A DNA stretch of 53,996 bases from Candidatus Nealsoniibacteriota bacterium. Lineage in GTDB: Bacteria > Patescibacteriota > Minisyncoccia > Minisyncoccales > PWPS01. Positions 2,926 to 5,266 of the stretch are shown piece after piece (position 1 is the first letter of the stretch; the number at the start of each line of letters is the position of its first letter). The stretch spans positions 1 through 53,996 of the forward strand of contig PUNQ01000040.1 of the NCBI GenBank assembly GCA_003551845.1, given 5' to 3'. The position numbers were made by a program, and so were the translations under genes. The notes below the pieces were generated by a model. That model ran no database searches and was not told where the DNA came from. It was given only the letters and a program-made list of their open reading frames with translations.

Positions 2926-3064
2926 ATCAGGCTAAGCCGGATTAAATCGATTTTTGCAGTAATTCTATATGCTTTTTGATTTTCAATCGGATCGAGTGAA
3001 AATAATCCGGTATTTTTTAATAATTTATATTAAAAATATATCAGAGAAGCGGTTTTATGTCAAC

Positions 3065-3090
3065 GAAAAAACCCGCTTTGAACGGGTTTT
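3065..3090 (-). terminator. Rho-independent terminator after clpP
   Basis: On the minus strand, AAAACCCG, a 7-nt loop, CGGGTTTT and a six-T run, 17 nt past the clpP stop. The rest of 2880-3106 (apart from the rny promoter) contains no gene I can support. Confidence 0.85.
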
Positions 3091-3106: not shown

Positions 3107-3706
3107 CTACTCTTTTTTCAGTTTTTGTTCCTTGGATATCACTTTGTCTATCAGTCCGTATTCCTTGGCTTCCTCGGCACTCATATAAAAATCTCTGTCG
3201 GTGTCCTTTTCTATTTTTTTCAAGGTTTGGCCGGTGTGAGAAGAAAGAATTTCGTTTAATTTTTTTCTGATCTTCAAAATATGATCGGCGGCAATCTCTA
3301 TCTTGGCCGCTTCACCTTCCACTCCTCCCATTACCTGATGAAGCATAACTTCCGAGTTGGGAAGTCCGAATCGTTTACCTTCGGCTCCCGATCCCAAAAG
3401 TACAGCTCCCATGGACGCCGCTATTCCGACACAAACGGTCGATACGTCCGATTCGACGTATTGCATGGTATCGTAAACGGCCATTCCGGCGGTAACCGAT
3501 CCTCCGGGGCTGTTTATATAAAGTTGAATATCCTTTTGAGAATTCTCACTCGCCAAAAAGAGCAGTTGAGCGATAATTGAATTGGCTACCTGATCATTAA
3601 TCGGACCCCCCAAAAAGATTATTCTTTCTTTTAGAAGACGGGAATAGATATCGTAAGCTCTTTCTCCCCGTGGACTTTTTTCGATTACTGTCGGTATTAA
3701 ATTCAT
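3107..3706 (-). CDS. clpP: ATP-dependent Clp protease proteolytic subunit
   Basis: A serine protease that forms the barrel-shaped ClpP tetradecamer and degrades proteins delivered by Clp ATPases. The length of 199 residues is typical. The catalytic triad is visible: Ser98 in GIAASMGA, His123 in MLHQVMGG and Asp172 in [10 protein letters not shown], matching E. coli S97/H122/D171 spacing. The oligomerisation region [13 protein letters not shown] is intact. It lies 24 nt downstream of nusA on the same strand and is followed by a clear terminator, so nusA-clpP is probably one transcript. No ClpX or ClpC gene is in the window. Confidence 0.97.
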
Positions 3707-3730: not shown

Positions 3731-4912
3731 TTAATTTTTATCCTCTTTTTCCGTTTTAGCATCATCCTTCTCATCTTCTTCATTCTCCCCATTCTCCTCA
3801 TTTTCTTCTTCTGAGGATTTTTCACCCAGAGCTTTTACGTCTATTTTCCATCCGGTTAAATTTGCCGCCAAACGGACATTCTGTCCGTCCTTGCCGATAG
3901 CCAAAGAAAGCTCATCTTCCGAGACTACGGCTACCGCTTTATTTTCTTCCAGAACTTCTACTCTGTGAACATTTGCCGGAGACAGTGCGTTGGAGATGAA
4001 TTCCTCTTCATCTTCGGACCATTCAATTATATCTATCTTCTCTCCATCCAATTCCGAAATTATCGCCCCCACCCTGGTTCCTCTTTGCCCTACCGCCGTT
4101 CCGACCGGATCCACGCCCTCTTCTTCTGAAAAAACAGCTACCTTGCTTCTCGATCCGGCCTCGCGGGCAATCGCTTTTATCTCCACCACTCCGGTCGATA
4201 TTTCCGGAACTTCCAGCTCGAAAAGCTTGGAAACCAGCTTGGGAAAGCTTCTTGAAAGATGAACTTTGGGGCCTTTGGAGCTTTTTTCCACTTTTAAAAC
4301 ATACATCTTGTACCGCTGCCCCGACTTGTAAAACTCACCCGGAATCTGTTCTTCTTTGGATAAAATTCCCAAAACCTTTCCTATATCGACCAAAATATTT
4401 CTTCCTTCTATTCTTTGAACCACTCCCGAAACCACCTCTCCTTCTTTTTCTTTGTATTCTTCATAAGTCAAGTTTCTCTCCGTTTCTTTTATCTTCTGAA
4501 GAACTACCTGTTTTGCCGTTTGAGCCGCAATCCTCCCGAAATCTTCCTTGCTTTCCAACTCTTCTTTGATTTCTTCTCCCGGCTCCGCATCATCGATTTC
4601 GTCGGCCATTACGTGACGCTTCGGATTGAATCTAACTTTTTCTCCGGCGCTTTTCATCTCTCCCTTTTTCAGCTTTTCCAACTCCTCGTCAGTTAAAATC
4701 ATATCTTCATCGACGACTTTTTTAACTTTCCAGAACTTCACTTCTCCGTTTTTCGGGTTGAAGTCGGCTTTTATCAAATCTCCCTTTTCTCCGTATTCTT
4801 TTTTATAGGCCGTGGCTATGGCCTGTTCGACAACATCGAGAATCCTGTCTTCCGGAATCTCTTTTTCGGCCGCTATTTGTGACATGGCCGCTGCAAATGA
4901 TTTCAAATCCAT
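3731..4912 (-). CDS. nusA: Transcription termination/antitermination protein NusA
   Basis: An RNA polymerase-binding elongation factor controlling pausing, termination and antitermination. The 393 residues show the NusA N-terminal domain (about 1-125), an S1 domain (about 155-210, EGEVVSGVVQRIEGRNILVD), and two KH domains with GTAVGQRGTRVGAI (about 270) and LAIGKDGQNVRLAANL (about 340). The last 35 or so residues are an acidic Glu/Asp/Lys tail in place of the C-terminal repeats found in some proteobacteria. The gene has its own promoter and a hairpin-containing leader (separate entries), which suggests autoregulation. Confidence 0.96.
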   Translation of the reverse strand: MDLKSFAAAMSQIAAEKEIPEDRILDVVEQAIATAYKKEYGEKGDLIKADFNPKNGEVKFWKVKKVVDEDMILTDEELEKLKKGEMKSAGEKVRFNPKRHVMADEIDDAEPGEEIKEELESKEDFGRIAAQTAKQVVLQKIKETERNLTYEEYKEKEGEVVSGVVQRIEGRNILVDIGKVLGILSKEEQIPGEFYKSGQRYKMYVLKVEKSSKGPKVHLSRSFPKLVSKLFELEVPEISTGVVEIKAIAREAGSRSKVAVFSEEEGVDPVGTAVGQRGTRVGAIISELDGEKIDIIEWSEDEEEFISNALSPANVHRVEVLEENKAVAVVSEDELSLAIGKDGQNVRLAANLTGWKIDVKALGEKSSEEENEENGENEEDEKDDAKTEKEDKN

Positions 4913-4945
4913 AATGGTTTCGGTTACGTGAATAATAAATTACTT

Positions 4946-4981
4946 TTAAAAAGAGTCCGCTTTAATGCGGACATCTTTCAT
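4946..4981 (-). other. nusA leader: terminator-like hairpin overlapping an 11-codon leader ORF
   Basis: On the minus strand, GTCCGC (4972-4967), a 6-nt loop and GCGGAC (4960-4955) are followed by TCTTTTT. This is an intrinsic-terminator shape placed between the nusA promoter and the nusA start. An ATG at 4981 opens MKDVRIKADSF, and the frame covers the hairpin and stops at 4946. Translation of this ORF would melt the hairpin, so it could act as an attenuator. The alternative is a distal terminator for the cca transcript. Seen directly: hairpin, T-run and ORF. The regulatory role is inferred. Confidence 0.5.
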
Positions 4982-5001
4982 ATCTTTACCGTCTTTACTT
5001 C

Positions 5002-5030
5002 AAGATAATTGAATTTCCCTTAATTGTCAA
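5002..5030 (-). promoter_or_regulatory. Predicted promoter of nusA-clpP
   Basis: On the minus strand: consensus TTGACA (5030-5025), 17-nt spacer, TATCTT (5007-5002). The predicted start near 4995 gives a leader of about 83 nt that includes the hairpin at 4955-4972. Confidence 0.6.
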
Positions 5031-5098: not shown

Positions 5099-5266
5099 AT
5101 GACTGAAAGAGCTAAAAAATTACTGGTGGTTTTATTCATCTCAATTATAATATTCATTTTGGCTTGGATCTTCAGACCTTTCGAGCCCGAAGAAGAAACC
5201 TTTAATCAAGAAGATGAGGAGCAAGAAGACGTAATGCCCTCTCCCGGAGAAATTCCCGAGTTTTAA
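5099..5266 (+). CDS. Small single-pass membrane protein, function unknown
   Basis: A 55-codon frame with ATG at 5099 and TAA at 5264-5266. The product starts with MTERAKK, continues with one hydrophobic helix (LLVVLFISIIIFILAWIF, residues 8-25), then a strongly acidic tail rich in Glu, Gln and Pro. Lys/Arg before the helix and acid after it fits an N-in, C-out anchor. It ends one base before the converging cca stop (5267), the tight packing expected of a real gene. No promoter or Shine-Dalgarno is obvious. It matches no family I recognise and could be spurious. Confidence 0.5.
   Translation: MTERAKKLLVVLFISIIIFILAWIFRPFEPEEETFNQEDEEQEDVMPSPGEIPEF

Follow-up and report, generated by a model that had tools for sequence, protein, structure and literature searches.

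A candidate NusA-feedback attenuator in the nusA leader of Patescibacteria

As recounted in two papers (PMC12288461; PMC8745188), the work of Mondal et al. (2016) established that nusA of B. subtilis is controlled by NusA-stimulated termination in its own leader. Feedback by NusA has also been proposed for the nusA leaders of E. coli and S. agalactiae. In the rimP-nusA-infB leader of S. agalactiae, RNA-seq places transcript release at an intrinsic terminator 31 nt after the transcription start (PMC4448216). A further element of this kind is the rimP-leader (Naville and Gautheret 2010; PMC2965389), a conserved GGGc...gCCC terminator stem that precedes rimP-nusA-infB and mostly lacks an antiterminator. 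Its regulator was left open between RimP and NusA, with NusA named as the best candidate (PMC2965389).

We found no description of nusA leaders in Patescibacteria in the open-licence literature. The leader analysed here carries a promoter-proximal terminator directly ahead of nusA, and its conservation makes it very likely that the element is an attenuator. The best explanation, to which we assign a probability of roughly 0.7, is that the terminator would serve as a feedback attenuator that acts through NusA-stimulated termination.

The nusA leader and its surroundings

The window, by which we mean the whole stretch of 53,996 nt that was analysed, corresponds to one 54-kb contig from a genome of 864 kb. 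Judged by nusA, the closest named relatives are Candidatus Nealsonbacteria, and we take the organism to be a patescibacterium of the class Paceibacteria. The nusA and clpP genes form one transcription unit (Table 1), and clpP also stands 3' of nusA at several inspected loci of the same family. The terminator that closes this unit abuts a predicted rny promoter (TTGACA-17-TATATT, beginning at 3063; the whole segment spans 3035-3090 of the minus strand). An ORF of 55 aa with a single hydrophobic segment (MTERAKKLLVVLFISIIIFILAWIF...) is located at 5099-5266 on the plus strand, where it is divergent from nusA and convergent with cca.

The first-pass annotation had described a promoter, a 6-bp GC-rich hairpin, a TCTTTTT tract, and an 11-codon ORF upstream of nusA, and all four are correct base for base on the minus strand. 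Thus, a terminator composed of a GC stem and a U-tract stands between the promoter and the first gene of the nusA unit. Five of the six base pairs are G-C, and the loop comprises 6 nt.

Table 1. Coordinates of the nusA leader and neighbouring features in the window
Feature	Position	Strand	Remarks
Promoter, sigma-70 type, TTGACA-17-TATCTT	5002..5030	-	Consensus match; -35 TTGACA 5030-5025, -10 TATCTT 5007-5002
Predicted transcription start	about 4995	-	Placed from the promoter
11-codon ORF, MKDVRIKADSF (ATGAAAGATGTCCGCATTAAAGCGGACTCTTTTTAA)	4946..4981	-	Spans both hairpin arms and ends in the T-run; judged incidental
Terminator hairpin, GTCCGC-ATTAAA-GCGGAC	4955..4972	-	About +24 to +41 of the predicted transcript
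U-tract, TCTTTTT	4948..4954	-	Directly 3' of the hairpin; predicted release site
nusA, controlled gene	3731..4912	-	393 aa; Pfam NusA_N, S1, KH_5; ATG at 4912
clpP, second gene of the nusA unit	3107..3706	-	Pfam CLP_protease
Ordinary terminator after clpP, AAAACCCG...CGGGTTTTTT	3066..3090	-	Closes the nusA-clpP unit
cca, upstream gene	6718-5267	-	Same strand as nusA; ~290 nt in between

Taken alone, the hairpin in the window is only mildly unusual. Terminator-like sites number 23 in its first 15 kb, compared with 20.5 ± 4.5 in shuffled sequence. A leader segment of 52 nt folds at -15.7 kcal/mol (z -4.7), which was equalled by none of 200 shuffles, and the fold of a 117-nt segment reaches a z-score of only -1.4. 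The pattern GTCCGY-N3-8-RCGGAC occurs a single time in the 864-kb genome, and this occurrence is the nusA leader.

Conservation of the leader terminator

Regions upstream of nusA were gathered from the family, order, class, and phylum, and were examined by a fixed procedure in which promoters, called as consensus matches, were scored first and a terminator was then sought no more than 90 nt further on. The succession of promoter, intrinsic terminator, and nusA was recovered at 91 of 116 loci of the order, at 45 of 69 from other orders of the class, and at 12 of 20 from other classes, counts that represent related genomes and not independent events. Shuffled leaders passed the same procedure in 1.1%, 1.3%, and 5.3% of cases, respectively. 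Control ORFs from the same kind of loci scored positive four times in 126, and two of these positives belong to nusA units, one being a nusA start and the other a gene inserted between leader and nusA, which leaves 2 of 124. Because the arrangement is conserved among relatives far beyond chance, we take the leader terminator to be real. At the locus with the inserted gene (L022), an ORF of 126 aa (MTNNKHQKFDLEERTGEFGE...) sits between the promoter and hairpin and nusA, and an attenuator there would control the inserted gene as well as nusA.

Inspection by eye revealed a TTGACA promoter, a GUCCG...CGGAC hairpin, and a T-run in nearly all members of the family and in most of the order. About 20-25% of the order loci were missed by the procedure; on inspection, some of these show the hairpin (e.g., L023, L083, and L088), some have hairpins that are weaker or more distant, and others have none. 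The hairpin core [GA][TC]CCG...CGG[AG][CT] is present within 300 nt of nusA at 91 of 117 loci of the order and 34 of 69 loci of other orders (shuffles, 0.75%). In other classes, a hairpin of different sequence occupies the same place (e.g., UUCCGCGG...CCGCGGAA), and therefore the structure outlives the sequence. Four loci from other classes (L187, L188, L190, and L193) share a different conserved nusA-leader hairpin, ATCAGATTCCGYGG...CCGCGGAATTCT, which occupies the same place and has a weaker U-tract.

Changes within the stem point to selection at the RNA level. Those observed include G-C to A-U, C-G to U-A, and U-A to C-G, and pair counts over 54 sequences reveal changes on both sides at four stem pairs, although the motif used to choose these sequences (alignment A1) itself requires most of the pairs, so that the counts lean towards structure. 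At the second pair of 126 motif hairpins, U-A is found 76 times, U-G 37 times, C-G 10 times, and C-A 3 times. The U-G wobble is good in the sense RNA only, and it is twelve times commoner than its mirror image, C-A, which argues that the sense RNA is under selection. With compensatory changes found in relatives, in an alignment whose sequences were motif-chosen, the comparison proposed in the first-pass annotation was positive throughout the order and the class and in part of the phylum. The same range of conservation supports its central suggestion of an attenuator-like intrinsic terminator between the promoter and nusA.

In 125 leaders chosen without regard to the tail, T accounts for 57-86% of the bases at positions +2 to +9 past the hairpin, and A for 58-71% at positions +10 to +14. 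The U-tract read from these leaders is thus 8 nt long and ends sharply, a pattern that marks an intrinsic terminator.

A covariance model was built from the nusA-leader hairpins of the order and was run on 60 genomes. Matches were obtained in 55, and in 37 of these the top-scoring one genome-wide fell at nusA. Because the model was trained on nusA leaders, this result describes the rarity of the element elsewhere and not an independent discovery. On this count, we rejected the notion that the hairpin is a generic terminator sequence of these genomes. Of the good matches away from nusA that were inspected, most were terminators, either at gene ends or immediately ahead of rplJ. At L312, L314, L317, L326, L328, and L329, terminator hairpins of the form GTCTGC...GCAGACATTTTT lie directly before a gene whose product begins MALTKEQKQ or similar, which was judged from this N-terminus to be rplJ (ribosomal protein L10). 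Several are preceded by a TGCCGCAGAC...AGGCA segment, and these hairpins probably constitute the attenuator of the L10 leader in these Patescibacteria.

Control of termination

In the proposed mechanism, RNA polymerase would start about 24 nt before the hairpin or, in many relatives, right at it. Once the GUCCG/CGGAC hairpin and the U-tract have been transcribed, either a transcript of about 45-50 nt would be released or polymerase would read through into nusA-clpP. NusA bound to polymerase would stabilise the hairpin and the pause. High NusA levels would then favour termination and lower nusA mRNA, and low levels would let transcription pass. We infer from the leaders and from the described systems that the terminator is active in vivo, that it stops only part of the transcripts, and that it is tuned by NusA.

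Two features of the leaders argue for this mechanism. The first is the strength of the hairpins, whose median stability is -8.3 kcal/mol versus -10.9 kcal/mol for gene-end terminators of the same genomes (p 1e-4; 32 gene-end examples, taken from the collected loci). Terminators reported to need NusA are those with weak hairpins and interrupted U-tracts (PMC8745188), and the weakness of the leader hairpins therefore counts in favour of NusA feedback. The second is geometry. Counted from the -10 box, the stem begins at 7-9 nt in roughly one-third of the order leaders and at 22-36 nt in roughly one-half, and in 72 of 148 leaders the hairpin starts no more than about 10 nt from the predicted transcript start. 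With the hairpin this close to the predicted start, about half of the leaders have no RNA from which an antiterminator could form and cannot accommodate a leader peptide. The terminator itself must therefore be the point of control, and this is where NusA acts.

No rimP gene was found in the window's own genome, and in the 4 of 20 relatives that have one it is on a contig other than that of nusA. RimP feedback therefore cannot explain the conservation. A search for Rho in 20 genomes (the window's own and those of 19 relatives) yielded nothing above the family cut-off, which suggests that Rho is absent from these Paceibacteria. The weak Rho-family matches are ORFs of 463-585 aa that look like ATPase subunits.

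The sequence of the GUCCG/CGGAC stem appears more conserved than a bare terminator requires, and this hints at something besides simple NusA-assisted termination. One candidate, which we regard as unlikely, is that the stem itself is a recognition element for the S1-KH region of NusA. If so, the terminator on which NusA would act lies just 25-30 nt or so from the start site. The leader would then constitute a minimal feedback switch that is sequence-specific and operates where sigma gives way to NusA, in bacteria seemingly without Rho. The high conservation of the stem likewise suggests recognition by some protein, and the activity of the same terminator could be set not by the level of NusA but by a different factor able to weaken or open the hairpin, such as a cold-shock protein, NusG, or another RNA-binding protein. 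In E. coli, terminators lie in the nusA leader region and the operon is cold-induced (PMC6511841). Set against this are the best-studied cases, in which NusA feedback is documented or proposed as the regulator, and the fact that nusA is the gene common to all these units. We consider control by another factor distinctly unlikely.

Another reading, and one we judge improbable, is that the element is a constitutive, unregulated partial terminator, or a 5' stem-loop, and either reduces the amount of nusA mRNA or stabilises it. In 72 of 148 leaders the hairpin occupies the far 5' end of the predicted transcript, a location in which a stem-loop can protect an mRNA. However, a protective stem needs no U-tract, yet the sharp-ended tract of 8 nt is conserved, and the combination of promoter and terminator is missing from other genes of these genomes, as the 2 positives in 124 controls indicate.

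It is highly improbable that the hairpin is unrelated to nusA attenuation and is instead the terminator of cca or a DNA operator. The cca gene is upstream on the same strand, about 290 nt away, and the hairpin is an inverted repeat near a promoter. Nevertheless, the promoter stands between cca and the hairpin, and the order of promoter, hairpin, and nusA is kept despite different upstream neighbours, and we therefore rejected the upstream-gene terminator. An operator was rejected on the wobble asymmetry, with U-G outnumbering C-A, and on the varying distance between the arms, by which the loop changes length among the motif hairpins.

Least credible of all is control by ribosomes translating the MKDVRIKADSF ORF, as the first-pass annotation had raised: the window has this ORF intact and extending across both arms, and the nearest congener (L003) keeps the frame only with a TTG start, but no short ORF is conserved in the leaders, just 18 of 91 leaders from the order and 14 of 45 from other orders have an ATG ORF running through the hairpin, the encoded peptides are unrelated, and about half of the leaders are too tight for a leader peptide. 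This hypothesis was rejected, and feedback by NusA on the terminator itself remains the preferred reading.

Comparison with described nusA leaders

An Rfam search at gathering and permissive thresholds returned no family for the nusA leader element. Resemblance to the rimP-leader is nonetheless considerable: both are short terminators with a conserved stem signature, mostly no antiterminator, and less strength than ordinary terminators, both lie 4-130 nt before the first gene, and for both NusA is the proposed regulator. The signatures differ, with GUCCG...CGGAC in Patescibacteria and GGGc...gCCC in the rimP-leader; GGG...CCC arms occur in 4 of 148 leaders, compared with 106 that carry UCCG...CGG. 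The score against RF01770, the rimP-leader family of Gammaproteobacteria, is 16 bits versus a cut-off of 47, and the operon here is nusA-clpP, with rimP absent or not adjoining nusA, in place of rimP-nusA-infB. Because the element departs from the rimP-leader in signature, Rfam score, and operon context, we file it with the nusA-operon attenuators and not with the rimP-leader.

The S. agalactiae leader offers a close parallel in geometry, given that in Patescibacteria the median distance from the predicted start to the end of the hairpin is about 30 nt. It belongs to a different phylum and to an operon with rimP, and the likeness involves no demonstrated sequence relation. B. subtilis, as far as the accounts of its leader describe it, would share with Patescibacteria the principle that intrinsic termination in the 5' leader governs transcription into nusA, and the part of NusA in Patescibacteria is assigned by this analogy. 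In B. subtilis the leader precedes rimP (ylxS)-nusA-infB, whereas the leader described here precedes nusA directly, followed by clpP.

If the preferred reading is correct, NusA-linked leader attenuation extends to Patescibacteria, a large and mostly uncultured group. The attenuator would also be a minimal one, in that many relatives manage with neither antiterminator nor leader peptide and termination is seemingly intrinsic, without Rho. Moreover, an attenuator placed directly on nusA, in genomes where rimP has been lost or moved, favours NusA over RimP as the regulator.
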